From: a virus
DNA: 64,000 nt
IMG/VR virus record: IMGVR_UViG_3300033145_001721
Location: 1 to 64,000 of that record
Direction: 5' to 3' (one strand)
Position numbers and translations under genes: made by a program. Each line of letters opens with the position of its first letter. Positions within the stretch are counted from its first letter, which is position 1. Below, piece after piece: positions 535-56,379 of this stretch. The notes beneath the pieces are model-generated. The model was given only the letters and a program-made list of their open reading frames with translations. It did no database searches and was not told the DNA's origin.

Positions 535-1170
535 CTATCCATATGTGTACAGCTTACATCGTTTAGGCATTGACTTCTCGTTTGAAAAAGACCAAGACCA
601 CGCCTTATGTCGTTTGTAAATTTCCTTCATACTTCCATACCACATTCTGTCCATATGGCACTGTCGAAATTTAGCACCGCTATACAATCCATTTGTATAA
701 ACCGGCGGAATGCAATCTGAACTGAGATGACTCCCATTCGCAAAGCATATGTCTGTCAACATGAGCCTAATCGATAATCTCAGTGTAACAAGATCAAATG
801 TAAACCTATGATCCCCGTGACCATACTCTCCCATTGGATTATGTGTGAAAACACATTCAGGTTTCCATGTATGAATAAACTTGTCAATCTGAATTTGAAA
901 TTGGTTTATCACCATCGGCAATGTAAAATCCTTCGGGTTTGGACTGCGAGGCGACACCCTAGAGAAGTTTGTATCTAACCGATGAAAGGGAACAATTTCA
1001 ATCTTGTTTTGTTTGCTTACTTCTTTCAACGCATCTATGGGTCCAGATCCATATTTTTCGTGATTGTCAGCAAGCGTGATCAACGCTACTTCATGCTCAT
1101 CCCCTTGTAAGATGGGCCACCCAAAAAGGACTTCATCATCCGGGTGTGCCATAATCATTAAGATTCGCAT
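535..1170 (-). CDS. PIG-L/LmbE-family deacetylase
   Basis: This 211-residue protein has the zinc-binding signature of PIG-L/LmbE hydrolases: AHPDDE at residues 8-13 and HGDH at 118-121. The family removes N-acetyl groups from GlcNAc-linked substrates such as GlcNAc-PI, GlcNAc-inositol or bacillithiol precursors. The length is normal for the family. It is the last gene of a ten-gene operon with three glycosyltransferases, an aminotransferase and an ATP-grasp ligase, so an amino-sugar substrate made by the operon is the natural guess. The family is secure; the substrate is inference. Confidence 0.88.
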   Translation of the reverse strand: MRILMIMAHPDDEVLFGWPILQGDEHEVALITLADNHEKYGSGPIDALKEVSKQNKIEIVPFHRLDTNFSRVSPRSPNPKDFTLPMVINQFQIQIDKFIHTWKPECVFTHNPMGEYGHGDHRFTFDLVTLRLSIRLMLTDICFANGSHLSSDCIPPVYTNGLYSGAKFRQCHMDRMWYGSMKEIYKRHKAWSWSFSNEKSMPKRCKLYTYG

Positions 1171-1199
1171 CAGTCAACGCCCCCTATTATGTGTGTGGA

Positions 1200-1727
1200 C
1201 TATTCCAATCCGTCATTTCTTAGGTAGTACTTAATTTGTGATATGACATCGGCCCAACTGTTACGAAAGACTACAACGTGAATGCCCAGAGCTTCAATCT
1301 TCTTAGCAATTTCACGCCGGAAAGTACCTATCGCATTTTCCTGACCCGTCATAAAATCATCCACATAAACATAGGGTTTCATTGCAGTCAAAATCGCAAT
1401 CTTTGCAGCCATGTTTGGAACGACGGTCACACTCTCAGGATTAGGCACTTTCAAATTCTTCAACTGACGAATAGTCAACACACCATCCAAGTCATATCCC
1501 CGTGCTGTCAAATATCGTATTTCATTCACAGCAGACAAACCCCAGAGAGTTTCGAGACATTCTATAGGATTCCCAGTAAAATTATCCATTTCCAACTCAG
1601 GCCAAGTCCAAGCCTTTCTGTGTATCTTACCTCCAGGCCATCGGGGAACCGTATTGCATCTAATCCTACGCCAATGATCAACGATTGTACTATCAACATC
1701 AAAGACAAATAGCTTCTTAGTCTCCAT
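1200..1727 (-). CDS. HAD-superfamily phosphatase
   Basis: The 175-residue product shows the HAD motifs in order: FDVDSTIVD near the N-terminus (nucleophile and acid/base aspartates), YLTARG (motif II), a lysine in the NMAAKIAIL region, and YVYVDDF (motif IV metal-binding aspartates). The size resembles polynucleotide or sugar phosphate phosphatases of phages. I chose the internal ATG at 1727 because GGAGAAG stands 5 nt before it, while the upstream codon at 1751 has no ribosome site. It slightly overlaps the ATP-grasp gene upstream and probably dephosphorylates an intermediate of the operon's pathway. Confidence 0.8.
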   Translation of the reverse strand: METKKLFVFDVDSTIVDHWRRIRCNTVPRWPGGKIHRKAWTWPELEMDNFTGNPIECLETLWGLSAVNEIRYLTARGYDLDGVLTIRQLKNLKVPNPESVTVVPNMAAKIAILTAMKPYVYVDDFMTGQENAIGTFRREIAKKIEALGIHVVVFRNSWADVISQIKYYLRNDGLE

Positions 1728-2787
1728 GCAAACTTCTCCGCAATGATGCATATGCCCGGTCGAACATGGCGTTTTTGTTTAGCCAGTAATTCGTGTAAAA
1801 CGGAATCTCCTTTTGCAATCTGAACTTTTCACGTTTCAAAAATTCAACAAGGGCTGGGGGGCGACTTGGATTATAAAACGGAGGATTCCAATTCGCACGA
1901 TTGAAATATCCCGTAGAAAATCCAGGTTGGACTTCAAGGAAATATGGATTGTTATTCTGGTCGAGAATTACATCAACTCCCTGAAAATTCAATCCTAATA
2001 CACGCACAGACTTAACCAGCATATCCTCATGCTGATGACAAAAATCAGAACAGACTTTTTGACATGTTATAAAAGTCTCTTCCATTTGTGATTCAAAACG
2101 ATTGGTGATAGCAATCCAATCAGAAGGCGATCCCAATCGAGCATACCCTGTAACGACCTTGTCTGCAGCTACAATGATCCGAAAGGACATAATCACATTT
2201 TCGGGTCGCACTGTAGATATGAATTTCACAGCTAGAAGCCTTCGTAACGCCCCACCCTTTTTCAAATCGCCACGAGTCTTTGACATATAAGAATCAAGGT
2301 CTTTCAACGCTTGTTTCGCTTCACCCTCGTCATTCACCAGATATGAATGATAGCCGGTATTAGCGTTGTTAACTCGCACCAACATAGGGAAGTCAAAACT
2401 TTCCTTTTTCTTCTCCCAAAAGTCTTTTGAATTTGAAAATTCAAACCAATCTGGAACTGGAATGGAATTATCCCTCCAGACTTTGAATGCCTCCTCCTTT
2501 GCGTGTGACGCCATCCATCCGCGCGGATCGTTGATATGCTTAATACCTGATGGAAGACGCCTAATTATATCCACACAACGTTTCCATAGATTTTCATCTG
2601 TATATTCTGTATGGAGCTTCCAAACTATCGTATCCGCTTTTGAATGCAAAATCTCGTCCACTGTAATGAAATCTGGCATGTCCTCCAAAACTATTGGCCC
2701 CATATATGTTTCACACATTTCCTTTTCATATGCACGCCAACTAACTCCATGGCCTTTTATGGAGACCACTGAATGTGATTCACTCAT
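1717..2787 (-). CDS. ATP-grasp carboxylate-amine ligase-like enzyme
   Basis: A 356-residue protein with the layout of RimK-type ATP-grasp ligases: an N-terminal pre-ATP domain, the segment from NDPRGWMASHAKE (about 86-98) into the ATP-binding core, FPMLVRVNN with a conserved-type strand, and NNPYFLEVQPGFSTGY (about 288-303) at the metal/ATP site. Such enzymes join a carboxylate to an amine or thiol through an acyl-phosphate. Start ATG has AAAGG 8 nt upstream and overlaps the aminotransferase stop as ATGA, so the two are translationally coupled. An amine made by that aminotransferase could be its acceptor; this is inference. Confidence 0.78.
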   Translation of the reverse strand: MSESHSVVSIKGHGVSWRAYEKEMCETYMGPIVLEDMPDFITVDEILHSKADTIVWKLHTEYTDENLWKRCVDIIRRLPSGIKHINDPRGWMASHAKEEAFKVWRDNSIPVPDWFEFSNSKDFWEKKKESFDFPMLVRVNNANTGYHSYLVNDEGEAKQALKDLDSYMSKTRGDLKKGGALRRLLAVKFISTVRPENVIMSFRIIVAADKVVTGYARLGSPSDWIAITNRFESQMEETFITCQKVCSDFCHQHEDMLVKSVRVLGLNFQGVDVILDQNNNPYFLEVQPGFSTGYFNRANWNPPFYNPSRPPALVEFLKREKFRLQKEIPFYTNYWLNKNAMFDRAYASLRRSLHGD

Positions 2788-3674
2788 TTGTTCAACCTTT
2801 CCGTTTCTAACATTTCTCGAATAGCCACAACAACAGCTTCAAAACTTTGGTCATCACCCGCATACAAAAATAGCTGATATCCTTTCAATGATCGATACAG
2901 ACTAAAACGTTGAGCCAGTGCATTTGTAAAATCGTTTACAACTAACGTAAGCACTGGACCTTCTCCGATTATATAATCGGATGGAATTAAGCTTTCCAAC
3001 AAAGCGCGCCGCTCATCCATCTTAATCCTAAATTTGCCAATATCAAACTTATCTACCGTTTCAAGCAAATCCCAATACAACGGAATAGCAGGTGTGGCTG
3101 GTGTCTCAGATTTCTCCCTGAATCTGAGATATCGACGAAGACTCAAAACACTATCAGTTTCAAGTTTGAAAAACTTATCTACAGACAACCGTTTGCGTAT
3201 ACCTATAATGCTGATGACAGGGTAAGCCCCCAATTGCTTACTGCCGACAGTGGTAAAAATATCAACATCCTCTGGTACAGGATAGTATGGAAAAGCACTT
3301 ACCATATCGGCAAAAAGAATTGATTGGAATGGTTTTAGGTGTGTTGGATTAACTTGTGAACAACTTGTCTCATACAAACAAAAAGCCATGCACAATATTG
3401 GTGGGTCTACTGCGTGAAGCTTTTCAAGTCTATCTAACCTGCCCCCAAATTCGTCTTTGGCGTAGAGACATGTTGTGCCTACATTCAAACTGGAAAGGAC
3501 GATCTCATTAGCCATCGTACCGCTACCAGTAACGAATATGAGATTGAAATCATCCAATCGAGGAAACGTAGTTTTCATTTGGGCTTCTAACAACTGAAGC
3601 AGTTCATGAAACGTATCGTCCCTATGATGATGCACAGGTTTTGCAATCATCGATTTCGCGTTCGGGCCGAACAT
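2784..3674 (-). CDS. class V (fold type I) PLP-dependent aminotransferase
   Basis: The 296-residue sequence resembles the alanine-glyoxylate / 2-aminoethylphosphonate transaminase group: GPNAKSMIAKPVHHHRDD at the start, FVTGSGTMANEIVL for the cofactor phosphate, FADMVSAF with the aspartate that contacts the PLP ring, and TVGSKQLGAYP with the candidate Schiff-base lysine. It is shorter than the usual 350-390 residues, mostly in the C-terminal domain. It is coupled to the ATP-grasp gene by ATGA. Phage-encoded enzymes of this class are rare. It probably makes or converts an amine for the operon's product. Confidence 0.75.
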   Translation of the reverse strand: MFGPNAKSMIAKPVHHHRDDTFHELLQLLEAQMKTTFPRLDDFNLIFVTGSGTMANEIVLSSLNVGTTCLYAKDEFGGRLDRLEKLHAVDPPILCMAFCLYETSCSQVNPTHLKPFQSILFADMVSAFPYYPVPEDVDIFTTVGSKQLGAYPVISIIGIRKRLSVDKFFKLETDSVLSLRRYLRFREKSETPATPAIPLYWDLLETVDKFDIGKFRIKMDERRALLESLIPSDYIIGEGPVLTLVVNDFTNALAQRFSLYRSLKGYQLFLYAGDDQSFEAVVVAIREMLETERLNK

Positions 3675-4786
3675 CTTCCAATCCTTCCATAAACAAATTT
3701 CTTTCCCAGATATTTAAGTACTGCAATACGGTGCATTCCATCCCATGGGTCTTCCGCATTTCTAGGCATCAACCTAATAGGAGTTTCCTGTCCATGTTCG
3801 TTTGCAGTCTTAACCAAATTGATGTAAGACAGAACACGTTCTCTTGCTATTTTTGGGCCCCAAGCTGTAGACCCACAATGTCCATCTCGTTGCCATCTAT
3901 AACATGCAGAATCCGCCAAATTTGATTCATCTGTTCGATTGGATAGCACATCCTTTATGAACTCAGGAAAAATCTTCTGGTAAAATACAGCATTGTAAGG
4001 ATTTAGGGCTATCTGCTTTTCCCAACAATCCTGTATAGGAAGCCGTTTTAATGAACGACTGCGAAACAATAAAACGGTTAAATCTTTCACACGACCTTTC
4101 GCATTCTGCCCCAACAACTTTGCAGGTGTAGAAATACGATGTGTGAAAATCCAATCAGACAAAGGTTTCATTAAATGCTGTAGATATGCAGACTTCGGAT
4201 CGATTACACCTCCTGCATTTTCATCCAGCAGCACAACCAAATACAAACTCTTAGAAGATAATACCCGCAAATATTCAACTAACGCATTTACGCGCATATG
4301 GTAATGAACACAAGACAGCATCGTGATATCTACAATAGGGAACGTATGCATATCAAGTGGCTTCGCATCTGGATGGGCTATGTTAGGTTCCAACGGACCT
4401 ATGCCTCGATTGTATACCTCCAAAGGCATCTTATCATAATAATCACGTGTAACAAGTAATTGATCGAAAGCTCCCAGCCCCGCATCCACCCCAATCAGTC
4501 TATCAAATTTATACTTTTGCCACGCGCGTAAAAGAAACAAACCGGCACTACAACCTACTTCACACAAGGAACTTTGTTCAGATTGTATCCCCAACTTATT
4601 TATATGTTCTAACATCGGTTTTATGTAATGGGTCCACCGGCCATCCCCATATGATCTGTCATTCGTTTTGCCATCCCCAAAATGTGTATTGGGGGACGAA
4701 ATATTGCCATAAGGAACAGACTGATACCAACGTCGCTTTTTCCCAGCTTGATCAATACGCGTTTTCAATTCAGTATCACTCAGCAT
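3647..4786 (-). CDS. SAM methyltransferase-like protein with C-terminal ParB-like motif
   Basis: The 379-residue protein has a Rossmann methyltransferase motif I (SLCEVGCSAGLFLLRAW) followed by RLIGVDAG, so a class I SAM-dependent domain fills the first half. The C-terminal part carries DPWDGMHRIAVLKYLG, the DGxHR signature of ParB/sulfiredoxin-like domains. I start it at the ATG at 4786, preceded by GGAG at 7 nt, rather than 33 bases further upstream inside the previous gene. It overlaps both neighbours. Whether the second domain binds nucleotide or protein is unknown. Confidence 0.68.
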   Translation of the reverse strand: MLSDTELKTRIDQAGKKRRWYQSVPYGNISSPNTHFGDGKTNDRSYGDGRWTHYIKPMLEHINKLGIQSEQSSLCEVGCSAGLFLLRAWQKYKFDRLIGVDAGLGAFDQLLVTRDYYDKMPLEVYNRGIGPLEPNIAHPDAKPLDMHTFPIVDITMLSCVHYHMRVNALVEYLRVLSSKSLYLVVLLDENAGGVIDPKSAYLQHLMKPLSDWIFTHRISTPAKLLGQNAKGRVKDLTVLLFRSRSLKRLPIQDCWEKQIALNPYNAVFYQKIFPEFIKDVLSNRTDESNLADSACYRWQRDGHCGSTAWGPKIARERVLSYINLVKTANEHGQETPIRLMPRNAEDPWDGMHRIAVLKYLGKKFVYGRIGRCSARTRNR

Positions 4787-5480
4787 AATCAATCTCCACA
4801 TTTTTGATGACGACAGCAACAGGAAAAGACCTTATGCCAAGATCCACAAGCTGTATATCATTGATGTCGTCTCGTTTTTTTAGAAACGCATCTATGTCCG
4901 CATATCGAATCATTTGAGGATGATCTATGTTCCCCTGCGTTTTGCGTCTTTCGATTTCATTCTCATCGTCCCCACGACAATCAAACGCCAGGAAGCACAA
5001 TTTGCTCACACGCATACATTCGGAAAGAGTATCAAAGATGTTCCATCCATGATCCAAACAATTATAGCTGACAAGAACATCAATTGAATTATCATCCAAT
5101 GGAATCTTTTCAGCTGCCGATTCTACGTATGTTGCATCTTCGGGCCATTCGCAAAAATCCAAATCAACTAATTCACGTTGAATATAATCGATGAACACCT
5201 TTTTCTTAGCGGGCAAATTGCAAACTTGTAGCACACCCCCAAACGGCCCGGCCCCTACCTCACCCACAATCTTCGTTTCATCTATGTAAAATGGAATGTC
5301 AAATTGGTTCAGAAATTGTTCATAATAAGGCTTCCTGCACACATCCTCCTTGTCCCTATTCTTTATCCACCACGCTATGTTTCTTGCTATGAATTCTCCC
5401 CTAGACTCCAAACCGCCCCTGTGATTTTCCACATCACTCACATGAGTAATCCAATGTAAATTTCGGCTATCTGTACTCAT
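4776..5480 (-). CDS. class I SAM-dependent methyltransferase
   Basis: A 234-residue protein with the methyltransferase-11 type pattern: KIVGEVGAGPFGG (SAM-binding loop), ESAAEKIPLDDNSIDVLVSY (motifs III-IV) and a following LDHGWN. A strong AAAGGAG site lies 7 nt before the ATG. It is the second methyltransferase in a row in this operon and overlaps the next gene. These enzymes usually act on small molecules or sugars rather than DNA, and no target-recognition domain is present. Family secure, substrate unknown. Confidence 0.75.
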   Translation of the reverse strand: MSTDSRNLHWITHVSDVENHRGGLESRGEFIARNIAWWIKNRDKEDVCRKPYYEQFLNQFDIPFYIDETKIVGEVGAGPFGGVLQVCNLPAKKKVFIDYIQRELVDLDFCEWPEDATYVESAAEKIPLDDNSIDVLVSYNCLDHGWNIFDTLSECMRVSKLCFLAFDCRGDDENEIERRKTQGNIDHPQMIRYADIDAFLKKRDDINDIQLVDLGIRSFPVAVVIKNVEIDYAE

Positions 5481-6239
5481 TCAAATACTCCTTTCTGAAA
5501 ATGCATTCCGAACTCCACACTGGCCCCAATGCAACATCATGCATTCGATGGGGGTTTTTTTGCCTTGTATTTGTTTCGTATAATCCCGCATATACTTGGC
5601 ACCGCTTGCCCCCACACACCATTGCTCAGGAAGATAAACAGGAGTGATACCAGTCTTCCATGAAGCACGCCAAAAGGCAAGCGTGCCCCTCATGCAATTC
5701 TGTAGTTCTGCTAAATAAGCAGATAGAAGAATGTGTGCCCTTTCATCCTTCCTATATACAAATAAGGGACTGACGTTACATGCAGGGGCATGTGGTGGGC
5801 CACTGTACTCGTTGTAAGGAATAAAATCCTCTGGCTTTGTATCTGCACCCCTGGCATTGTACTTCACGTATATTCTCGGATTTGTAGGCACACAAACCCC
5901 GAAACGTTCAGCCAATAAAAAGCCATCGGTAAATTCGGAATGTACAATACGCATATCGTCATTGATAACACAATAGGAATCTGCATAAGGTTCTAATGCA
6001 AAACGCGCTGATAGAACATTACAGTTGCGCACACCCCAACGTGGGCTTTCCAACCATTGAAGTTCATTATGAGGAACGATCAATTGTGTGATTTCTTTGG
6101 GTAAATTTCTCTGGTGATCTGTTACCACATAAACGGGAATATTGGGGCTGACTTGTTTCAGATTCTCTAACAACCCATGAACGTTTTTCTCCCTTCCAGG
6201 TCCCAAACTGACGATTAGAATTGCGCGTTTTATTTCCAT
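5481..6239 (-). CDS. putative glycosyltransferase (GT-A-like)
   Basis: The 252-residue protein starts with a hydrophobic strand and a PVYVVTDHQRNL segment typical of nucleotide-sugar folds and has an acidic metal-binding type motif CVINDDMRIV about 90 residues in. It resembles short phage glycosyltransferases but lacks a textbook DxD. Its start overlaps the end of the upstream glycosyltransferase. With its two neighbours it forms a run of three sugar-transfer genes. Assignment to a CAZy family is not possible by eye. Confidence 0.55.
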   Translation of the reverse strand: MEIKRAILIVSLGPGREKNVHGLLENLKQVSPNIPVYVVTDHQRNLPKEITQLIVPHNELQWLESPRWGVRNCNVLSARFALEPYADSYCVINDDMRIVHSEFTDGFLLAERFGVCVPTNPRIYVKYNARGADTKPEDFIPYNEYSGPPHAPACNVSPLFVYRKDERAHILLSAYLAELQNCMRGTLAFWRASWKTGITPVYLPEQWCVGASGAKYMRDYTKQIQGKKTPIECMMLHWGQCGVRNAFSERSI

Positions 6240-7039
6240 CCTAGTCTTTCTTTCTTATCATGCCGAATCATCACATTCGGAAACAAATTCGTTTCGTAAA
6301 TCATCTTTTTCAACTTAGATTTCAAATGAATAACTGCCGCTGTATCTGTATCCCCAATTGCAGCACGAACAAGATTGAAAGCCTCATCCCCCATTGTATC
6401 TGTAGCAGGGCAGTAGTTATATCGTGGGCCAGCGTCAACAATTGACAACCCACGTAATTTCTTCAAAGCGTCTCTTTCCAACCAAGTCGCAACCAAGAAA
6501 TCCTGGCCGACACTCCAGTCCAATCCAAATCGAAAATGATTGTATTTCTTCCTAACTGCTATATATGCATCCCAAGTATTTTCAAATATTTCATCCACGT
6601 GCCAAGCCACCCATTTTCTAACACATGAATTCACACGCAAGTAGAAGATCCCACCATTGATTGGAAACAGATGTTTGTATCCCCTTGTTGTAATCCCTAT
6701 ATCCATACCCCTGTTATCTTCAAATGGTTTGAAAGGATCTGCCTGAAAATACACATCTACATCAGACACAAGAATTTTGTCGTTGTACGAAAAATATTGC
6801 TGAAAACAGTGGAGCAACATTTCAATCTTGCATGTTGCGCGACGTTTAAGCATTTGCTTTGGATCGACCATCTGCCACCAGACATTGTAATTATCAGATA
6901 GAAACGATTTCACAATGTCTGGAACTCCATCGGTAACAATAATGATCTGGACATCAGATGTAACTTCACGCAAACTGTGAATACACGTTTCCAGCATGTT
7001 GTTGTCTCTTTGATGGTACGTGAAGTACGCAAATTTCAT
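6230..7039 (-). CDS. GT-A fold glycosyltransferase
   Basis: This 269-residue protein shows a nucleotide-diphospho-sugar transferase pattern: an N-terminal strand-helix VQIIIVTDGVPD, the metal-binding KILVSDVDVYFQADPF (DxD) near residue 95, and PINGGIFYLRVNS downstream, as in GT8/GT77-like enzymes. The ATG has AAGGAG at 6 nt. It is translationally linked on both sides. The donor sugar and acceptor are unknown; tail or capsid glycosylation, or a cell-surface glycan, are the main options. Confidence 0.72.
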   Translation of the reverse strand: MKFAYFTYHQRDNNMLETCIHSLREVTSDVQIIIVTDGVPDIVKSFLSDNYNVWWQMVDPKQMLKRRATCKIEMLLHCFQQYFSYNDKILVSDVDVYFQADPFKPFEDNRGMDIGITTRGYKHLFPINGGIFYLRVNSCVRKWVAWHVDEIFENTWDAYIAVRKKYNHFRFGLDWSVGQDFLVATWLERDALKKLRGLSIVDAGPRYNYCPATDTMGDEAFNLVRAAIGDTDTAAVIHLKSKLKKMIYETNLFPNVMIRHDKKERLGWK

Positions 7040-7647
7040 TACAATCTCCTTGCTTTGCTACCTTGAACATTTACGATACGCCGAAATCGACGGGATGCTT
7101 GATAGTGTACGATAACTCCATTGTGGACGTTTCGCATTAGATCAAATATCTTACAGTACTGGGCTGGAAGGCATCCAAATTTGAGATCATACTTTTTGGA
7201 GTTTATCAGTTCTTGTAGCAAATCTGGATTGCGTTTTCTCCACTTTTTCTCCATGCACAATTCTGCCCAATCGACAACAAACTTTTGCACAATAGGAGTA
7301 TTGCGAAAAAAGATAGTTCCACCTAAAAGTTCATTACGGTGCCAGGGAAAATCATGTACATGAGCTGCAATGTCTGCAATGAATTTCGGGTCTTCAAAGA
7401 GAATCGGATATCGTTCAAAAACCGCGTCGGCATCAACCCGCAAAATATCCCTATCAGGAAAACGATACAAAGCATCTTGAATAACTCTGCTACAAAAGTT
7501 GCTATTCTTTCTCCAAGTTCCTAGAGATTTGATGGGAGTTAGATCCAACTCCAATTTCCATTTCCGACACGATTCAACAAGGTTCTTCACCTCCTCTTCA
7601 TACGGTGTATCTACCGTATAATGTGACACAATCAAAGGCATTGTCAT
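7039..7647 (-). CDS. GT-A fold glycosyltransferase
   Basis: The 202-residue product contains ILRVDADAVFERYP (DxD-type metal site) near residue 72 and LLGGTIFFRNTP about 35 residues later, the same two-motif layout as its downstream neighbour but with little other similarity. I start at the ATG at 7647, just behind the previous stop, with GGAG 10 nt upstream. It is short for a glycosyltransferase, so it may be a minimal catalytic domain. It belongs to the accessory operon that follows the tail genes. Confidence 0.68.
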   Translation of the reverse strand: MTMPLIVSHYTVDTPYEEEVKNLVESCRKWKLELDLTPIKSLGTWRKNSNFCSRVIQDALYRFPDRDILRVDADAVFERYPILFEDPKFIADIAAHVHDFPWHRNELLGGTIFFRNTPIVQKFVVDWAELCMEKKWRKRNPDLLQELINSKKYDLKFGCLPAQYCKIFDLMRNVHNGVIVHYQASRRFRRIVNVQGSKARRL

Positions 7648-7648
7648 T

Positions 7649-8260
7649 CTAGTCAATCTCCTTTCTATATTCGATATATTCGTTTAGCTTACTTGTAGGA
7701 GAATGACTGATCACTTCCAATCCTGCTTCTTTTATCTTTTCCAATGCCGTCACAAAATGCCCAAAATATTCTGTAAGATGTGTAACACCACTACGATATT
7801 GAGCATGAAAATTACTTCCACCGTTATGATGTAAATCCATTCCCAATAGATGAATCCTTTTCGCCCCTAATATTATTGCTAACTGCATTCCACAAAATCC
7901 GCTATTTTGACCTGTGCAAAATCCATTCCCATTAACATAAATCTGTCCGTCAAATCGAGTGGGTTTGATATGCCAATCATATTGTTTCAAAAAAGGTTCT
8001 ACTCTATGAAAGAATTTGTGATCTTCCCGCATCACAAGAACCTTGCAACATGCACATCCCCAAAAATTGTTAACTGCCGCGCATCGAGCATATACACTAT
8101 CGGCAGTTAAAAAATATGAAGGTTTTGGAACAAACTTAATGGCTCCATTGATTGCAATCGTTGATTTTGAACGTATTTGCTCCCAATCAAAATCTTTCAG
8201 AGAAGGCCCACATCCTATGACATACACATCGTCAGAAATGTTATAATTTCGATCATCCAT
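7649..8260 (-). CDS. DUF115 / GT42-like Rossmann protein
   Basis: A 203-residue protein beginning VYVIGCGPSLKDFDW, then AINGAIKFVPKPSYFLTADS, and later GAKRIHLLGMDLHHNGGSNFH. This pattern is shared by DUF115 and CMP-sialic-acid-transferase-like proteins, which bind a nucleotide or nucleotide-sugar. A paralogue with the same motif order lies at 25458-26111 inside the connector genes. It is the first gene of the accessory operon, 15 nt behind the tail tip gene, so it is probably co-transcribed with the tail. Biochemical activity is unproven for phage members. Confidence 0.68.
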   Translation of the reverse strand: MDDRNYNISDDVYVIGCGPSLKDFDWEQIRSKSTIAINGAIKFVPKPSYFLTADSVYARCAAVNNFWGCACCKVLVMREDHKFFHRVEPFLKQYDWHIKPTRFDGQIYVNGNGFCTGQNSGFCGMQLAIILGAKRIHLLGMDLHHNGGSNFHAQYRSGVTHLTEYFGHFVTALEKIKEAGLEVISHSPTSKLNEYIEYRKEID

Positions 8261-8274
8261 ATCAGTATTCCGTC

Positions 8275-11200
8275 TTATGCTGTCACGTCAACCTTAACTT
8301 CCAAAAGAGCTACAATTCTACATCGAGCATCCGTATCGAATCTGATAGCCTTCCAAGCGGCCCCAACGGTCAAGTAGCTTGAAATATCAATATCTAATTG
8401 ATCTCCACTATACGAACCGATTTGTGCCCCAAATCCAGAACCATCGTCAATATGAAAATCAACGTTTACAGAATTGCTCTCTTCAAAGATATTATAATTC
8501 AAATCGTGATTATGCATAGGTGTTGTATGAGAATGGGTTGGAACCGTAACGCTGTGTGTATGTGTTGCTGTGATATTGTGGGTGTGGCCATTAACGCTAT
8601 GTATATGATTATTAAGTCCATGCATATGAGTAGTAATAGCATGCTGATGACTTCCAGTTCCATCTGCATATTGTGTATATGGTGTTCCGCCCGATGCAGT
8701 ACTACCCGAAGCTCCACCTGTTTGTGTTCCGCTATCTGTTGATGTATTTAGAGAATTCCCAGAACCTGTTGTACCACTACCTCCTGCAACTATACTGGTA
8801 GTCATTCCAGCATCATTAGCGGCTCCTGTAGCGTATGCTCGATAATCCTTTATCTTGAACGAAAGCTTAGCCGAAATAAGAGCAGTAGTTTCACTAGGTA
8901 ACTTAAAATCGAATGTATATGGGTGATTAGCATCTAAAGAATCCTCACCAGTCCAAGCCATTGTTTGTCGCAGCTCAGCATAAGACTCTGCTCTTATAGT
9001 TCCAGCCAAGACTAAGCCAGCATGTAGCAATTGCATTGGAGTTGAACATACATGGACTTCGTTGTCCTTCAAGATAGCTACAACCCAATTGCCAGAAGCA
9101 ATTGCAGTATTAAGATCATCTGTTGACAAAAATCGATCTGTAAAATCTGGGTCCCAATAGATGTATTCTTTTGTAGATAAATCAGCAGTTATCTCATACG
9201 TTACGCCTCGATATCGGAAAGTAATAGGCTCCCCCACAGTTCGAGCATCCCAAGATACGGTTGTTCCCCCTGAATCTGACGTCCATTCACAATTGCTTAT
9301 CCAAGGAATATCAATATTTGGTTGTGGTGGCAACTGTTTGTTAATCAAATCAGAAATGTTACGCCACGTAACAGGAACATCTTCCAAACCAGAACGTTTC
9401 GACGGTGCAGGCCAAATATAATCAGGATTTGGATTGTCTGGATCAAAAGAGTCTTCATCTGTAAACAAAGCAGATGTGTAGGTTTCCACTGTAATTTCAT
9501 AATAGTTATCTACCGACTGTGCGATTTTGATTATTCGCCTCGTTTTTACGGCACTATCTGTTTTCGATGCAGCAGCTACATCGTCTTTCTGGGGGATAGG
9601 ATCTAAGGGTTCTTCAAAAGTTACAGAACACCCGACCTTGCTTGCTACTGTATACGACTTAACCTGAACATCGTTGACACCTGATGAACTATCAAATGCA
9701 CGGATGTAAAATAAATCACCCACAGCCACATCAACTACCCTATCAAATGTAGCTGTGTACACATTTGATTCTACAGACACGACACGATAGTTTTCGCCCC
9801 AATTAGGAGTCTTTGCTTGCAAACAAATAACATCACCCAAATGATGACGAATAGCGTCCTTATGCATTTTGAATTTGTTGATATTTCTGATCAATCGATT
9901 TCGATCTAGTGCAAATTTGGCTATTCGTACAGTGCCACTCCATCGAGTTTCACCGGAGCCTTCGATTTCGATAGAACGCGTGTACACACCACTGTCTTCA
10001 TCGCTGTATGGATATGACGTGCGTTCATATCCAATATCCTCATCACGATAAAACACGTTGATTGTACCCGCCATTTCGCTTTGACCTATCCATACATTCT
10101 CCCAACTGCGAGATATGATGTTGTCCCACGTAACTAAATCTGAATCAGCATCTGCGACTTCAGCATCTAGCCATCCACTTAATTTAGTCCCCTCCCAAAA
10201 CAACTTAGCTCTGCCTACTTGAGCCAATTTGTATGCTAATGAAAACAGATTCTGTTTTGTGTCTACATTAAAATTGCAAACAGATCTTTCTTCTGTGCCA
10301 CCCTTCCCGTCAGGCACAAGAGTAGCGCACCAAACAGCCCATTCGTAAAAGAAAGCAGTATCAATATTCGCAATAGGAATTCCTTCGTATCGCTCTATAA
10401 CGTATGGATCGCCACTTTCCCCTGTACCACTAATGACAGGTTGTGTTACTATATCCAAAACAACCCATGCTCGATTGTTACTGTATTTAAGAGACCAAGA
10501 CATACCATCATAGACATTAACGATTCTGCCCTGCCGGACACCTTTTACATCCAACGACGTATTCAAAGATCCTGTAGCTAATGCCGTTACGCCCATTAAG
10601 ATTCTACCAGGTCGCGTAAAAGCTACGTCTATCACCTCACGTATAGATTTGAGGTATGATTTTGTAGTGCGACGTTCATCGTCAGCAGATGTTGAGCGTG
10701 TAAACTTCACATCATATTGAGTACCCCTTTCTATAATAAAAGAATACTCCGAATCCAGTTCAGATACTTTGATGCTAACGAACTTGGCTGTTAACTGCTC
10801 CCCCGTTATGTTTTCATCATAAATCGTAGACCAAGAATTCAAACCCCTTTTGCTCATCTCGATTTTGATATGTACAGTAGCATGCGTTTCGCTTCCGTCG
10901 TGATGATATTTGATAAGTCCATAAGGAAAAGATATTGTAAACTCAAGATCATCAAAAAAGTTATTTGGAGTAGTAAAAGTTTGGGCTCCTCCGTCCTTAG
11001 TCAATTCCCAATTAAGAGAATACTCAATTTTCTCTTTTTCAAAACCCTCCATCACAGTTTGATTCATTGTGCCCAAGCGTTCTTGAGTAACAACATCTGC
11101 AAAATTGCCAGCCGGTTGGTCGTTTAAGTATTGAATGTTAGCTCCGGCTCCAGCTACCGGACCTTCACCATAATCGATAATTAAATTTAGGATTTCATTA

Positions 11201-11697
11201 TCGTCGTCATTTACAGACGTCCACTCAGAAACAACATTGCCATGCATCATTAAGTTGCCATAAGGTCTAGGTCTTGCAAGACCCTCACGCTTTCTTGTTC
11301 GGGGATTCCAACTATAATTTTCTGACGGATCGTCTCCACCTTGTGTTTCATCATAATCTTGATTGAACAGCATCCCGCCCAAATAAGAAAAAGCAAAAGC
11401 AATTGCCACTTGCACAGCTATAGGCCAAACATAAACTATAGCAGCCCATATGAATGCAAAAAATTCAACATCAGGTAAAAACTCAACTTTACAACCTGGA
11501 CGAACTCTGGTAGTTTTCCAATCGCATTTAGAAATTATTTGCCCATCTAAGCGTATAACCCAATGACCTTCTGGCACGCAACGCTTTTTCAATGTAGATA
11601 ACCGCTCGCGCCTACAAATGTATTCGCCTATATCAGCTTGGGGTGCCTGATCTTTAACTGGGTGTCTCCAGATGTGGATGTAAAAAGTACTACACAT
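8275..11697 (-). CDS. tail tip / central hub protein (lambda gpJ-like) with histidine-rich C-terminal fibre
   Basis: At 1140 residues and just behind L- and K-like genes, this is the host-specificity protein of a lambda-type tail. The N-terminal region has a hydrophobic stretch (FIWAAIVYVWPIAVQVAIAF) and the typical PRPYGNLMMHGNVVSEW segment. Hub and fibronectin-like repeats probably follow. The last 250 residues switch to a Gly/Ser/Thr-rich segment and then a run of His-x-His pairs (THMHG, NHIHS, GHTHN, THTHS, THSHT, HNHD), as in metal-stabilised needle fibres. I start at the ATG at 11697 (AAGGA at 10 nt), not the earlier TTG. It should contact the host receptor. Confidence 0.88.
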   Translation of the reverse strand: MCSTFYIHIWRHPVKDQAPQADIGEYICRRERLSTLKKRCVPEGHWVIRLDGQIISKCDWKTTRVRPGCKVEFLPDVEFFAFIWAAIVYVWPIAVQVAIAFAFSYLGGMLFNQDYDETQGGDDPSENYSWNPRTRKREGLARPRPYGNLMMHGNVVSEWTSVNDDDNEILNLIIDYGEGPVAGAGANIQYLNDQPAGNFADVVTQERLGTMNQTVMEGFEKEKIEYSLNWELTKDGGAQTFTTPNNFFDDLEFTISFPYGLIKYHHDGSETHATVHIKIEMSKRGLNSWSTIYDENITGEQLTAKFVSIKVSELDSEYSFIIERGTQYDVKFTRSTSADDERRTTKSYLKSIREVIDVAFTRPGRILMGVTALATGSLNTSLDVKGVRQGRIVNVYDGMSWSLKYSNNRAWVVLDIVTQPVISGTGESGDPYVIERYEGIPIANIDTAFFYEWAVWCATLVPDGKGGTEERSVCNFNVDTKQNLFSLAYKLAQVGRAKLFWEGTKLSGWLDAEVADADSDLVTWDNIISRSWENVWIGQSEMAGTINVFYRDEDIGYERTSYPYSDEDSGVYTRSIEIEGSGETRWSGTVRIAKFALDRNRLIRNINKFKMHKDAIRHHLGDVICLQAKTPNWGENYRVVSVESNVYTATFDRVVDVAVGDLFYIRAFDSSSGVNDVQVKSYTVASKVGCSVTFEEPLDPIPQKDDVAAASKTDSAVKTRRIIKIAQSVDNYYEITVETYTSALFTDEDSFDPDNPNPDYIWPAPSKRSGLEDVPVTWRNISDLINKQLPPQPNIDIPWISNCEWTSDSGGTTVSWDARTVGEPITFRYRGVTYEITADLSTKEYIYWDPDFTDRFLSTDDLNTAIASGNWVVAILKDNEVHVCSTPMQLLHAGLVLAGTIRAESYAELRQTMAWTGEDSLDANHPYTFDFKLPSETTALISAKLSFKIKDYRAYATGAANDAGMTTSIVAGGSGTTGSGNSLNTSTDSGTQTGGASGSTASGGTPYTQYADGTGSHQHAITTHMHGLNNHIHSVNGHTHNITATHTHSVTVPTHSHTTPMHNHDLNYNIFEESNSVNVDFHIDDGSGFGAQIGSYSGDQLDIDISSYLTVGAAWKAIRFDTDARCRIVALLEVKVDVTA
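8498..8660 (-). repeat. His-x-His repeat region in the tail tip gene
   Basis: Codons for about ten HxH pairs spaced six to eight residues apart (cat/atg/gtg/tgt-rich DNA) lie in the 3' part of the tail tip gene. In the T4 long tail fibre tip, comparable HxH pairs hold a row of iron ions inside a trimeric needle. Here the spacing is regular enough for the same arrangement. The DNA repeat also creates spurious open frames on both strands. Confidence 0.7.
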
Positions 11698-12010
11698 GTG
11701 AATAGTATCCTTCAATAATTAGAGACCACGGCCATTGTGTCAATCGTCCTTTACGCACAACATAAGTCCCGTTCTTTTCCACCTCTGCATGCACAAAATG
11801 CAAACCATCAGGCCACACAACACCTGCGTGCCAATCGCTACTGACTCTCAATAATACAACAGCACCAACCCTCGGAGAATCAATCTTAACCATATCCGTA
11901 GGTTCAAATGGTTTATGAATACCTTGCAATACTCCCACACACCAAACAGCAAAGTTCCAGCAATTGCCATCCCATACTTTGCCAATTTGATTTTGAATCG
12001 TATTATTCAT
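11690..12010 (-). CDS. NlpC/P60-like tail assembly peptidase (gpK-like)
   Basis: The 106-residue protein has DGNCWNFAVW near the N-terminus (candidate catalytic cysteine) and DWHAGVVWPDGLHFVHA (candidate histidine), the core of NlpC/P60 cysteine peptidases. It sits between the L-like and J-like genes exactly where lambda K lies, but lacks the N-terminal Mov34/JAB domain of lambda gpK. Its ATG overlaps the upstream stop (TGATG). It may trim a tail protein or cut peptidoglycan during entry. Confidence 0.75.
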   Translation of the reverse strand: MNNTIQNQIGKVWDGNCWNFAVWCVGVLQGIHKPFEPTDMVKIDSPRVGAVVLLRVSSDWHAGVVWPDGLHFVHAEVEKNGTYVVRKGRLTQWPWSLIIEGYYSHV

Positions 12011-12645: not shown

Positions 12646-15021
12646 CTACCAATCCATCAATAACGTATATAACATGCTGAAATGAAATATTACAGGATCT
12701 GCAGTTGGGCTTGCCCCATCATCGGGAGCGACACGCTTTAGCTGCAAACCAATACCATCCCCAGCATCTATGTTTGTCGCAGCAATTGTTCCCAACGTAT
12801 ATTCCATCATTGCATTTGCTTCGGTTGGAATGTTCAAATCGCCGGAATCTATAGTTCCTGTTTGTCCCTCAGATGTGATTATTTCAGTGCCATCTTTCTT
12901 TACTGTACGCCAAGGAATCTCCCATTGTATTTCACCACTTGCAGTGGCATAAGCTTCATCAGTCGCAACACAAATTTTAATTGTCAAATCTTCAGATGTA
13001 TCACAATCATCTGGCACGTCTATTGTGAATATAGAATCGTCACCAATATCATAACTAACACCTTCAAAATACCCCACAATAACTGAATCAGGTCCTTGCG
13101 AACCTAATGACAAATCTTGCGGGACACGACGAATATTTCGAGTATCGCGTGCTGCTGTAGTAATAAGACCATCAGCGTCAATATGCAAAAATCCTGTTTC
13201 GTCTATCTCAACGTCTGTTGGCAAAGTGATCGGATGATCGGCTGTTGAAGCTGGACCAATTAGTTTAATATAGTTGCTACCGTTGTCGCTATCCTCATAA
13301 AGATCGATGTAACCGGCGGATGTGACTCCGTTGCAAACAGCCAAGCCAGCCTGGGCCATCAGGGGCATGGTGGATTCCGGAACAAATTTGGCTTCATTGA
13401 TGAACTTCTCGGCTAACTCGGCACTGGCGAACTCCACCAGTTGCATGTTGGCTATCAGGAAGGTTGGATTCGCCGTGGCGTGTTCATTCCAGAGGCGGCA
13501 ATTGGCCGACGATGTCGTTCCCTCTGTGTGACGGGCAACGCCCCAATATCGTGTCCATCGATCCGTATATGCCCGCATATTCCGGGATCGCAAGACGGTT
13601 GAAGTCGATCTGAACGCAACTGAGAGATATCCTTCGCTCGTGACACTCTTTAAGTCCAAGCTCCAGACGTACCACTTAGCTGTCGTAATCGTATAATTCG
13701 GCCACAATATTACGCCATCATCCACTTCCTGTCCCGCTTGGTCGAACGTTACTGTCATGCAGTTGCCATGAATCGGAGCGGAGTAAGCCGATGAAAATTC
13801 CACCGTGTTATCGTTCGCATCTGTAGGCGTAAATGACGAAATCATTGAACCATTCGTCAATTTATTCGTCTTGGTTCGGTCCAGTGTGGTGGCCATGGGT
13901 CCGGGAGCAATCTGCGAAAACGCAAAGGAACTGGTCAGCCAACGACTGGTATGATACACGTCGTTCAGGGCATAACCTGACGTGTGTGCACTGTAGGGAG
14001 TACCGTGGTTGGCCGTCACGGTATAAGTCGTTCCGCTGTCAGTCTCTAGTGTCCAGTTGTCCACATCAATTGTGCATCCGTCCAGTACCACGCGACAGGC
14101 TCCAGACAGTTTGATACTATGTAAATCCAGGTTCCTCAGAGTCACATTGCGAACTCCAGAAAAGTAAAACTCAAAGGGGGCTGTAGGAGTGCCATCAATC
14201 AAAACGGTTTCCCCGATGCAATTGCCCTCCAGGTGAGTCGAGTCGAAGATCACTGGAAACGACTGGTCGTGCCCTTCCATATAGGTGACGAATCCTACTG
14301 TGTTTTCAATGATTCCTCCCCGCACAAGAATTTCGCCGAGAGCGTTATCGGATCGCAGAGCGGCTATTTTGGCACCTGAGGAATAACAATTGTCTATCAG
14401 GGCACTGGCCGACTGCATCGCCGGAAGTCCCTCGGTATACCAATCGTAGTTATTGTTTATAAGATAACAGTCTCGAAAGCACCATCCAAAGCAACCCAAA
14501 GATGTAAACGCATGTCCACATTCGGAAAAGATGCATTTTTCCACGGTCAGATTTGCGATTCCTCCCGTAGTGGAATTGACCTTGTAGATTCCATGTTTTG
14601 TGTTTGATGCCCCTTGAAATTTAATCCCTGAAACCTTTTGATTGCCGCCCGAACCACTAAGCGTCAAGGCATACTCGCTGGCATTGACCGCTTCCATTAT
14701 CGTTGCACTCGGACCCGCCCCTTCAATACGCACGTACTTGTTTGCCGTGACCGTAGCCAAGTATATTCCCGCAGGCAGTTTGACCGTCCCATAAGGACTG
14801 GTGCCTGCCTTGTCAAAGGCCGCCTGAATTGCATCGGAATCGTCCGTCACACCGTCACCCTTGGCGCCGAAAGCCCACACATTAAAAACAGGCGATTTCT
14901 TACTAACCACATCGGTAGCAAAAAGTATTTCCCGTTCGGGCGGTAATGTGGGAGCATCCGCAGAAACCAAACCACAACACGCAAACATCAAAACAAATGT
15001 ATACACCAAAAACGTTTTCAT
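12646..15021 (-). CDS. tailspike with pectate-lyase-type beta-helix and N-terminal signal peptide
   Basis: The 791-residue protein carries VFNVWAFGAKGDGVTDDSD (residues about 45-63), the hallmark of pectate-lyase-3 beta-helices found in phage depolymerase tailspikes, followed by several hundred residues of helix-like repeats. It begins with a clear signal peptide (MKTFLVYTFVLMFACCGLVS, likely cleaved near ADA), which is unusual for a virion protein. The first two thirds are GC-richer than the AT-rich last third (from about 13300 down). The end (EIQWEIPWRT...) looks like a phage attachment or trimerisation domain. It probably degrades a surface polysaccharide. Confidence 0.78.
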   Translation of the reverse strand: MKTFLVYTFVLMFACCGLVSADAPTLPPEREILFATDVVSKKSPVFNVWAFGAKGDGVTDDSDAIQAAFDKAGTSPYGTVKLPAGIYLATVTANKYVRIEGAGPSATIMEAVNASEYALTLSGSGGNQKVSGIKFQGASNTKHGIYKVNSTTGGIANLTVEKCIFSECGHAFTSLGCFGWCFRDCYLINNNYDWYTEGLPAMQSASALIDNCYSSGAKIAALRSDNALGEILVRGGIIENTVGFVTYMEGHDQSFPVIFDSTHLEGNCIGETVLIDGTPTAPFEFYFSGVRNVTLRNLDLHSIKLSGACRVVLDGCTIDVDNWTLETDSGTTYTVTANHGTPYSAHTSGYALNDVYHTSRWLTSSFAFSQIAPGPMATTLDRTKTNKLTNGSMISSFTPTDANDNTVEFSSAYSAPIHGNCMTVTFDQAGQEVDDGVILWPNYTITTAKWYVWSLDLKSVTSEGYLSVAFRSTSTVLRSRNMRAYTDRWTRYWGVARHTEGTTSSANCRLWNEHATANPTFLIANMQLVEFASAELAEKFINEAKFVPESTMPLMAQAGLAVCNGVTSAGYIDLYEDSDNGSNYIKLIGPASTADHPITLPTDVEIDETGFLHIDADGLITTAARDTRNIRRVPQDLSLGSQGPDSVIVGYFEGVSYDIGDDSIFTIDVPDDCDTSEDLTIKICVATDEAYATASGEIQWEIPWRTVKKDGTEIITSEGQTGTIDSGDLNIPTEANAMMEYTLGTIAATNIDAGDGIGLQLKRVAPDDGASPTADPVIFHFSMLYTLLMDW

Positions 15022-15032
15022 CTTGTCAACTC

Positions 15033-15797
15033 CTACAAAAATTGTCCACCGAAAATCAAACCAAAACCAGGCATGTTAGCCGCCGTACCACACATTACGT
15101 TCAATAGCAAAATATCACCCGTACTCAATGTTGTGTAATCAGTATCAAGTAAACTAGACAAATCAACTGAATCCGAAGTAGGTGGTTGATTTGCAGTGTT
15201 GAAAGTTTTGGTCAGTAATGTCTGCCCCCCTTCATTTTTCAAAGACAAAACAACCGTATTAGAATCGTCAATTCCGGCAGGTGTTCCTTGCGTAAATAAA
15301 ATCACGCTATCGATTACAAGACCTGTACTTGCTGCGTAGACGATGCGGTCAGTTATATCTGCTCCTGCCGCAAGATTTTCTACCATTATCATTGCATCGC
15401 CTCCGTAGAATTGATGGGTTAAATATGTAACATCTAATGTGGTGGAGCTAGATTGTCTCAGAGTTTGAGAAATTGTCCAAAGCTCTTTGTTGTCGTTATT
15501 TTGTATGAAAGGGATTGGACGTTCAACAAACACCACTTCGTAAACAGTATTATCCTGTTCATTCAGCCAGTAAAAAGGCAGAGCTTTATTCGCTTGATAA
15601 AACGCCATCCATGTTTCTTTGTCCGTTTCAGAAACATTTCGTCGTCTTTCTTGGAATATGCGAGGATCAAAAGTAAACAACTCATTTATGCAAGGATACC
15701 CACTTGCGAAAGAAGATCGCTGCACGGCATCGTCACTATACTGATCCCCAAACCCTTCTATCTCAGGTTTAGCCGTTAGCGTTGGAAATGTATTCAT
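15033..15797 (-). CDS. minor tail protein M-like
   Basis: The 254-residue product starts FPTLTAKPEIEGFGDQY and continues into a compact beta domain (INELFTFDPRIFQERR, ALPFYWLNEQ) similar to lambda gpM-type tip proteins. A second beta-rich Thr/Ser domain (about 130-254) is an extra decoration. It lies directly after the tape measure gene, as M does in lambda-like tails. It should cap the tape measure or bridge it to the L-like protein. The family call rests on position plus the N-terminal pattern. Confidence 0.6.
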   Translation of the reverse strand: MNTFPTLTAKPEIEGFGDQYSDDAVQRSSFASGYPCINELFTFDPRIFQERRRNVSETDKETWMAFYQANKALPFYWLNEQDNTVYEVVFVERPIPFIQNNDNKELWTISQTLRQSSSTTLDVTYLTHQFYGGDAMIMVENLAAGADITDRIVYAASTGLVIDSVILFTQGTPAGIDDSNTVVLSLKNEGGQTLLTKTFNTANQPPTSDSVDLSSLLDTDYTTLSTGDILLLNVMCGTAANMPGFGLIFGGQFL

Positions 15798-25047: not shown

Positions 25048-25458
25048 TCAAGAACTTGTTTCTATCGAATTTGGATTTTCCGTACCTGCCCAATCTAAAT
25101 CCACGGTCCTTCCTAAACCATCCTTCATCGATTTGTCCAGTGCCGCAAGGGCACCACTCCAATCCAATCTCATTGCGGTTTGACCAAACTCCGTTGAATT
25201 GAAACCAAGATCCTCCGCGTGTTGGTAAGTCTCCGCGATTGTACTCACTTTTTCTGAGGTTGTTCGTCGGTATTTCAACGAATACAAATGAGCAGTTAGA
25301 TACCGTTCAATCAATTCCAATTCAGTTGCCGTGAATCCTGTATCTGTGCAATGTTTCGTTACAATTACATTTGCAACTGTGATAATAGAATCAATGGTTG
25401 TATCCGAATCCAACTCAACTATTGTGCCAACCAATATTGATGTTGTCCTGACAGCCAT
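25048..25458 (-). CDS. head-tail connector (gp6-like)
   Basis: A 136-residue mostly helical protein with ITVANVIVTKHCTDTGF, ELELIERYLTAHLYSLKYRR and VSTIAETYQHAEDLGF, the helix layout of adaptor proteins that bind the portal (gp6/YqbG type). It follows the capsid genes in the usual order. Its start overlaps the stop of the DUF115-like gene by one base, so the two are coupled. Confidence 0.72.
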   Translation of the reverse strand: MAVRTTSILVGTIVELDSDTTIDSIITVANVIVTKHCTDTGFTATELELIERYLTAHLYSLKYRRTTSEKVSTIAETYQHAEDLGFNSTEFGQTAMRLDWSGALAALDKSMKDGLGRTVDLDWAGTENPNSIETSS

Positions 25459-26111
25459 CAGTCCATCCCTTTCCCGCGCTTACGATCAGCCCAAAAATCA
25501 GTTGGATTCAACCAAGGAATAAGATCAGACGACAAAGCACTACAATCTGTCACGTTATAGATTTCGACATCAGAAAACTTCGCTTTCCAATCATGCACAA
25601 GCCTCTTGAAACCCGATATGAACATTTTGTAAATCTTTGGTGTAGTTGCAGCCGGTCTGATGTTATCTGCATGCCAATTAGCTTTGTCATCTATTCGCTG
25701 CATATCAAAACCCAGTAAATAGATTCGCTTAGCACCCAACAATATAGCTAAGTTGATAGCTGCTGCACCTGTGTTGCCATTCCAACCTATTCCATTTGCA
25801 TGTAATCCCGTGCCATACCGTTTCACAGACCACAACCAGGGAACTGTAGATTTCCGCAAGCCTGTAACGTTGGTAAAAACTGGATTGGAAAATTGAGACA
25901 AATTATCTTTGTGGTGTTTGTACCATGTCATGTCACCAAAGAAACATATCTTGCAAACCTTCTCACCCCACTTGTAGGCATCATTACATCCAATCGTATG
26001 CTCATCATATAGCAGTGACCTATCAAACTGCATCTTTTGCAAGCTATGGCCACCACCTATGATAAACACATCATCACCATACCAAACGGGATCTATCTGC
26101 CAAACAGGCAT
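25458..26111 (-). CDS. DUF115 / GT42-like Rossmann protein, second copy
   Basis: A 217-residue paralogue of the protein at 7649-8260: VFIIGGGHSLQKMQFD, TIGCNDAYKWGEKVCKICFF, GAAAINLAILLGAKRIYLLGFD and NWHADN follow in the same order. It sits between the capsid and connector genes, a place normally reserved for structural proteins. It may bind a nucleotide-sugar and modify the capsid, or have been captured with its neighbour. Identity to the first copy is low, so the two are probably old duplicates or separate gains. Confidence 0.66.
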   Translation of the reverse strand: MPVWQIDPVWYGDDVFIIGGGHSLQKMQFDRSLLYDEHTIGCNDAYKWGEKVCKICFFGDMTWYKHHKDNLSQFSNPVFTNVTGLRKSTVPWLWSVKRYGTGLHANGIGWNGNTGAAAINLAILLGAKRIYLLGFDMQRIDDKANWHADNIRPAATTPKIYKMFISGFKRLVHDWKAKFSDVEIYNVTDCSALSSDLIPWLNPTDFWADRKRGKGMD

Positions 26112-56372: not shown

Positions 56373-56379
56373 GGATGTT

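Follow-up and report, generated by a model that had tools for sequence, protein, structure and literature searches.

The analysed stretch (hereafter, the window; 64,000 nt) comprises bases 1–64000 of the 74,972-base virus record IMGVR_UViG_3300033145_001721 and carries a cassette of ten minus-strand open reading frames that runs from 8260 to 535, directly after tail protein J. The cassette encodes putative glycosyltransferases, methyltransferases and an N-deacetylase, together with an aminotransferase, an ATP-grasp ligase and a HAD phosphatase-like protein. These last three genes (hereafter, the trio) and their linkage across viruses are the main subject of this analysis. The features of the locus are listed below in the direction of transcription; percentages are amino acid identities to the corresponding proteins of a sister phage and of a more distant phage locus (L037).

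8275–11715, minus strand: tail protein J, shown as context outside the pathway (PHROG 31 'central tail fiber J', 1.2e-89)
7649–8260, minus strand: DUF115/MptE-like putative glycosyltransferase (PHROG 4603 'alpha-2,3-sialyltransferase', 8.6e-20; 82% in the sister phage, 51% in L037)
7039–7656, minus strand: GT1, Nucleotid_trans-like glycosyltransferase (PF03407, E 0.0012, under the cut-off; motif RVDADAVF; 82% in the sister phage, 48% in L037)
6230–7039, minus strand: GT2, Nucleotid_trans-like glycosyltransferase (PF03407, E 5.4e-4, under the cut-off; motif SDVDVYF; 52% in L037)
5481–6239, minus strand: GT3, putative GT-A-like glycosyltransferase without a described family (NDDM motif, one invariant Asp)
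4776–5480, minus strand: S-adenosylmethionine (SAM) methyltransferase 1 (PF08241, Methyltransf_11, 1.7e-6; 66% in the sister phage; absent from the L037 cassette)
3647–4786 (longest frame from 4819), minus strand: SAM methyltransferase 2 with a C-terminal, apparently ParB-like DGxHR segment (Gly-rich SAM motif; weak PRMT-type profile match; 49% in L037)
2784–3674, minus strand: trio part 1, divergent class V aminotransferase (pyridoxal phosphate (PLP) lysine K146, aspartate D123)
1717–2787, minus strand: trio part 2, RimK-type ATP-grasp ligase (PF08443, 34.7 bits against a cut-off of 21)
1200–1727 (longest frame from 1751), minus strand: trio part 3, HAD phosphatase-like protein (four HAD motifs)
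535–1170, minus strand: PIG-L/LmbE-type N-deacetylase (PF02585, 42.5 bits against a cut-off of 28.2)
473–528, no strand: inverted repeat 3′ of the last cassette stop (perfect 13-bp arms; folding z −3.95, lower than in 200 of 200 shuffles)

J and the cassette are separated by 14 nt, and the nine internal junctions measure, in order, −8, −1, −10, 0, −11, −28, −4, −11 and +29 nt. Eight of them overlap or abut, in agreement with a preliminary description of this DNA as ten co-directional genes with mostly overlapping ends, and the sole gap (29 nt) lies between the HAD and PIG-L genes. ATG 4786 and ATG 1727 are probably the better starts of methyltransferase 2 and of the HAD gene, respectively, and the hairpin at 473–528 is probably a terminator between two converging units. 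The ten genes are real and arranged as a single transcription unit in a late operon. All ten proteins were soluble in a simple hydropathy scan. In the whole record, the same approach revealed neither strongly polytopic proteins nor membrane proteins that resemble a flippase, a polymerase or an initiating transferase.

Family assignments

The labels of the preliminary description held to different degrees. Its DUF115/GT42-like designation of the first gene is supported by the PHROG 4603 match, whereas the Pfam family MptE-like (PF01973, formerly DUF115) was matched only under the cut-off; a weak match to WaaZ, a lipopolysaccharide (LPS) core transferase, was also found (3.1e-5). As for the three transferases described as GT-A-like, GT1, GT2 and GT3 each carry a D-rich, DxD-like motif and two of them matched Nucleotid_trans weakly, but the third belongs to no glycosyltransferase family: GT3 had no sensible family match in Pfam, PHROG or NCBIfam and no PDB match. 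GT3 was found again in many virus contigs and may be of GT-A type. One of the two SAM methyltransferases is clear by Pfam, and the assignment of the second depends on its Gly-rich motif and the PRMT-type match. From its motif, the DGxHR segment of methyltransferase 2 can be read as ParB-like. The same architecture of a methyltransferase followed by DGxHR is common to the window (3647–4786, minus strand) and two other contigs (L017:135-1154 and L018:8400-9425).

The remaining labels, a class V aminotransferase, an ATP-grasp ligase, a HAD phosphatase and a PIG-L deacetylase, were confirmed. None of ten members of the aminotransferase family matched Pfam as single sequences, although a family profile built from seven sequences matched class V structures (PDB 3f0h, 1.7e-14; 3zrp, 3.1e-12), and its matches also included SerC, AGXT, PhnW and a PntC-type fusion. 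K146 and D123 were invariant in ten relatives and aligned with the PLP lysine and the pyridine-binding aspartate of 3f0h. The nearest NCBIfam model was PhnW-AepZ (E 4.6e-6), with 26.3 bits against the 360.8 required, which places the protein outside PhnW. For the ATP-grasp protein, the RimK domain of Pfam was matched above the cut-off in the window and by seven of ten family members at E 0.01. The score to the NCBIfam model rimK_fam (2.7e-10; 40.1 bits against 143.4 required) places it outside the RimK alpha-L-glutamate ligase subfamily, and the family profile matched an L-amino acid ligase (3vot, 1.1e-5). The HAD protein gave weak family matches (its relatives match NT5C) and has conserved motifs, namely D10xD12xT14 (DxDST), Ser/Thr, K109 and D123-D124. 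In the PIG-L protein, the metal/catalytic motif (AHPDDE and GxxDH) was invariant across 11 phage relatives; the closest solved structure was MshB, with a match restricted to the metal motifs.

Conservation of the cassette and linkage of the trio

The sister phage (G002, a 37,969-base contig, with G001 as a second record of apparently the same virus) has the complete set of ten genes in identical order at 66%–86% identity. The ratio of nonsynonymous to synonymous substitution rates (dN/dS) between the two phages was 0.06–0.20 in each of the ten genes, and all ten are under purifying selection, more than chance would give. For comparison, most shared early genes are 72%–94% identical and the tape measure is ~70% identical. 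In the distant phage G011 (a 58,747-base contig with ~65% GC, harbouring locus L037), nine of the ten genes follow J directly in the same order at 41%–52% identity, and only methyltransferase 1 is missing. The terminases of the window and G011 are 46% identical, their tape measures 25%, and their GC contents differ by ~23 points; the divergence of the cassette thus resembles that of the terminase and stays well short of that of the tape measure. Its position directly after J is shared by the three phages.

The collections were queried with short conserved peptides or by tblastn, an approach that can overlook distant relatives. With the aminotransferase, PIG-L, GT3 and ATP-grasp proteins as baits for virus contigs, and with one genome scan, 64 contigs were recovered in addition to the window and G001. 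Every ATP-grasp carrier among them also encoded both the aminotransferase and the HAD protein (10/10), and no contig had the aminotransferase without the ATP-grasp gene. With the window and G001 added, the trio was complete in 12 of 12 records, representing at least ten distinct viruses after G001/G002 and L094/L095 were merged; a HAD gene of the trio family occurred alone in one contig. The co-occurrence gave Fisher p values of 7e-12 and 7e-11, which are overstated by shared ancestry. Trio members are mostly 26%–58% identical between contigs, and their genes are adjacent except in L044 and L047, where the HAD gene is set apart by one or two genes. In L042, L043 and L044, the aminotransferase is accompanied by two ATP-grasp paralogues. 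The ATP-grasp, aminotransferase and HAD genes thus form an inseparable unit, probably a sub-pathway, in line with the earlier remark that the mix of an ATP-grasp ligase and an aminotransferase is unusual.

In every virus found, the trio is embedded among consecutive genes for glycosyltransferases or sugar-nucleotide metabolism. Its neighbours elsewhere include UDP-glucose dehydrogenase (beside the trio in L042), GDP-mannose 4,6-dehydratase, NeuB, glycosyltransferase-like genes and a cytidylyltransferase fused to an HMGL-like aldolase; therefore, glycan chemistry is the common setting of the trio. The PIG-L, glycosyltransferase, DUF115-like and methyltransferase genes occur in many combinations across uncultured phages, several of them among terminase, head and tail genes, and these cassettes also contain other decorating enzymes (APS kinase, FkbM methyltransferase and polysaccharide deacetylase). 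The loss of methyltransferase 1 in L037 and these varied combinations indicate that the cassette consists of two modules and is not a single indivisible pathway. Gene-by-gene loss in relatives, which the preliminary description had named as evidence against a single pathway, thus applies to the methyltransferase, glycosyltransferase and PIG-L genes and not to the trio, which was unbroken in the 12 records. As a separate observation, the PIG-L/glycosyltransferase cassettes of L012 and L015 (6976-7818, 9313-10032) contain an APS kinase and a protein that, by eye, resembles a sulfotransferase, which suggests sulfated glycans.

The ATP-grasp, aminotransferase, methyltransferase 2, GT2, GT3 and PIG-L proteins had no tblastn match in 50,697 phage records (methyltransferase 1 and HAD were outside this search), and divergent family representatives likewise had none. 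In the same records, the DUF115 gene was matched in large-genome phages only (25%–29% identity) and GT1 in one uncultured phage. A scan of ~85,000 prokaryote genomes with short conserved peptides found no relative of the aminotransferase, and the corresponding ATP-grasp scan found one contig, L095 (NZWA01000088.1), binned in a metagenome-assembled genome of Flavobacteriales. L095 equals the virus contig L094 in gene content and order and looks like a phage contig. In 295 Bacteroidia genomes, the only other match was a distant tandem ATP-grasp pair on a 253-kb contig, which is not the trio. Literature searches returned no account of such a trio from a phage. Phage glycan clusters as such are known, and the amide-type trio adds a new form of them.

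Tail protein J and genome setting

The terminase, portal, tape measure and J genes identify the virus as a tailed phage, and the closest terminases of cultured phages are ~33% identical to that of the window. The two ends of the record share a 114-base overlap, and thus the genome is probably circularly complete at ~74.9 kb. The GC content of the cassette is close to that of the remaining window and gives no sign of recent import.

The J protein of the window is 26% identical to that of the sister phage and 40% identical, over 523 amino acids, to that of L037. Adjoining this highly diverged J, the stretch 12646–15797 (minus strand) encodes a tail-spike-like protein (791 amino acids) and a neighbour, neither of which has an equivalent at the matching place in the sister phage; the stretch is interpreted as a host-range exchange region. 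One further gene resembles the first gene of the cassette.

25458–26111, minus strand: second DUF115-like gene, in the head/tail region (PHROG 4603, 4.8e-26; 29% identical to the first DUF115-like gene)

This second gene may act on the same glycan as the cassette. Elsewhere in the window, a 774-amino acid protein with a concanavalin-A-like lectin domain (Laminin_G_3) lies among the structural genes (20774–23098, minus strand), and 53609–57780 (plus strand) contains an aldo/keto reductase (55377–56372) and a radical SAM protein (56380–57780) preceded by two genes without a family match. At the record ends (G000, the window record, from 74068 joined to 1–167), duplicated-looking ThyX pieces in the last few hundred bases are probably an assembly artefact. 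ThyX of the sister phage (L003:13757-15412, minus strand) contains an intein (Thy1 and Intein_splicing), and the window ThyX frame shows none.

Proposed function and alternatives

We consider the ten genes to be a late-expressed cassette of two modules that builds and decorates a glycan, with a virion protein as the likeliest acceptor, and assign this reading a probability of roughly 0.42. In module A, the DUF115-like transferase, the three GT-A-like transferases and the two SAM methyltransferases would assemble and methylate a short glycan, one amino sugar of which would be de-N-acetylated by PIG-L. In module B, the aminotransferase would act on a phosphorylated keto compound and yield an amine or amino acid that still bears the phosphate; the ATP-grasp ligase would then join this product to a carboxylate, or alternatively link a carboxylate to the amine that PIG-L has exposed, and the last step would be dephosphorylation by the HAD protein. 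The data show the gene identities and their order, the purifying selection, the inseparability of the trio and the position after J in three phages; from these we infer amide formation on the glycan by module B, the order of its steps and the virion target of the cassette. The decorated amino-sugar or amide-linked group proposed earlier is retained in part, as the glycan-decorating genes are kept as a unit and the trio is best read as supplying an amide-linked group, but its synthesis would be divided between two modules.

The closest biochemical precedent is the capsule of Campylobacter jejuni, in which the transaminase Cj1437 forms serinol phosphate from dihydroxyacetone phosphate. Serinol phosphate is then used by the C-terminal domain of Cj1438 for the ATP-dependent amidation of glucuronate, before the HAD protein Cj1435 removes the phosphate; this three-enzyme logic was shown biochemically (PMC11800397). 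Both systems combine a PLP transaminase, an ATP-dependent amide ligase and a HAD phosphatase in one glycan cluster, whereas the phage aminotransferase is class V-like and the phage record contains no UDP-glucose dehydrogenase. The phage trio may therefore follow the logic of Cj1437/Cj1438C/Cj1435, a likeness of reaction class that implies no claim of homology. Among cultured phages, the nearest case, made up of other families, is that of the Stenotrophomonas phages DLP3 and DLP5, whose cluster encodes PIG-L, WcaG, WecE, a methyltransferase, a glycosyltransferase and a ParB-like protein (PMC7326821; MT110073). As in the window, PIG-L, aminotransferase, methyltransferase, glycosyltransferase and ParB-domain genes are combined, here in a run before the terminase; in contrast, the aminotransferase is annotated as WecE, the methyltransferase is reported as Erm type, and ATP-grasp and HAD genes are lacking. 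The cluster was rejected as a homologue because its proteins matched none of six family profiles, PIG-L included. Mycobacteriophage glycosyltransferases are reported to decorate capsid and tail-tube subunits (Freeman et al. 2023, cited in PMC12619734) and likewise act, as phage-encoded enzymes, on virion proteins, but the citing account mentions no accompanying module of aminotransferase, ATP-grasp, HAD or PIG-L genes.

The pairing of a PIG-L deacetylase with a ligase also recalls mycothiol and bacillithiol synthesis (MshB/MshC and BshB/BshC), in which an N-acetylglucosamine moiety is de-N-acetylated before a bond is formed on the freed amine. This likeness is limited by the MshB match, confined to the metal motifs, and by four trio records without a PIG-L of the cassette type.

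Several observations weigh against the two-module reading or narrow it. In the four ATP-grasp-baited records just mentioned, the aminotransferase and HAD genes lie beside the ATP-grasp gene, and both a PIG-L of the cassette type and GT3 are lacking; PIG-L is thus a frequent and not an obligate partner of the trio. UDP-glucose dehydrogenase (PF03721) was absent from the window record, with control genomes positive; the carboxylate would consequently come either from a uronic acid of the host or from an amino acid, the latter being joined to the amine that PIG-L exposes. In class V relatives, an arginine near the C-terminus usually holds a carboxylate, and the aminotransferase family has no invariant arginine there. 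AlphaFold models, based on two-sequence alignments, reached a mean pLDDT (predicted local distance difference test) of only 42 for the aminotransferase and 32 for the ATP-grasp protein and were not used for fold searches. Finally, the sister phage has undergone replacement of J and neighbouring tail genes, yet retains the cassette at ~80% identity. The cassette therefore follows the phage backbone and not the tail tip, and glycosylation of J in particular is unsupported. The attachment to tail genes noted in the preliminary description accordingly stands as a position directly after J in three phages, whereas the exchange of J and the placement of the trio in sugar-nucleotide clusters elsewhere speak against a special tie to J. 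The link of the cassette to J itself is weak; a virion glycan in general is possible.

Alternatively, the same chemistry could be directed at the infected host rather than at virions and remodel one of its surface glycans (LPS, capsule or glycolipid), perhaps as a barrier to superinfection. Marine relatives carry the trio in O-antigen-like sugar-nucleotide clusters, the first gene resembles WaaZ weakly, and serotype-changing phage glycosyltransferases are known, as cited in PMC7326821. We nevertheless regard this explanation as unlikely, although deserving attention, because the hydropathy scan of the record revealed no membrane protein of the flippase, polymerase or initiating-transferase type, and because the cassette lies at the end of a late tail operon, when superinfection exclusion would be of little use to a lytic phage. 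The late position, the ten soluble proteins and the lack of flippase- or polymerase-like membrane proteins would favour a cytoplasmic acceptor such as a virion protein over an exported surface polysaccharide. It is less probable again that a protein or peptide is the direct acceptor of an amino acid or amine attached by the ATP-grasp ligase, in the manner of RimK or of a maturase of ribosomally synthesised and post-translationally modified peptides, with the aminotransferase and HAD protein supplying the amine and the glycosyltransferases serving a separate role. The nearest curated ATP-grasp families are indeed RimK and, weakly, peptide maturases, and the family profile points to an L-amino acid ligase; however, the trio is always found in glycosyltransferase or sugar-nucleotide gene runs, and a precursor-peptide gene was not noticed in the cassette.

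PIG-L, glycosyltransferase and methyltransferase genes are variously combined in other phages, as would be expected if the ten genes were a loose set of unrelated accessory genes without a common pathway. The gene order has been kept, however, despite the ~23-point GC difference and 46% terminase identity, every gene is under purifying selection and the trio is never split; this explanation is improbable for the cassette and largely refuted for the trio. Glycosylation or hypermodification of phage DNA is the most doubtful of these alternatives. DNA can be a substrate of phage glycosyltransferases (Pyle et al. 2024, cited in PMC12619734), but the thymidylate-synthase family PF00303 was absent from the record (control genomes positive), the relative G002 has ThyX instead and the cassette closes a late operon away from the replication genes. 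Without a hydroxymethylase-type gene and in a late operon, DNA modification is unlikely. Two substrate variants of the trio itself were also considered. Serine synthesis, to which the weak matches point (a class V SerC-like protein with a SerB-like HAD), could be a variant and is not preferred because serine is already present in the cell. For a 2-aminoethylphosphonate route, considered because PhnW is the nearest NCBIfam model, no gene for phosphonate synthesis was noticed around the trio, and no search was aimed at such genes.

Glycosyltransferase genes of phages are usually annotated singly and left unexplained, and the trio, unbroken across unrelated viruses and matched by a bacterial analogue of solved biochemistry, provides a concrete prediction of transamination, amidation and dephosphorylation. 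On the two-module reading, this phage-specific trio might make an amide-linked group and attach it to a virus-encoded glycan, probably on virions; we advance this tentatively, as a viral counterpart of bacterial capsule decoration, carried in an old lineage at the pace of the terminase and without a known case in cultured phages. If so, the signatures MFGPN (start of the aminotransferase), WRxxE (ATP-grasp) and DxDSTxxxHW (HAD) would flag such decorations in metagenomes, and the glycan chemistry encoded by phages would be more elaborate than simple glycosylation.

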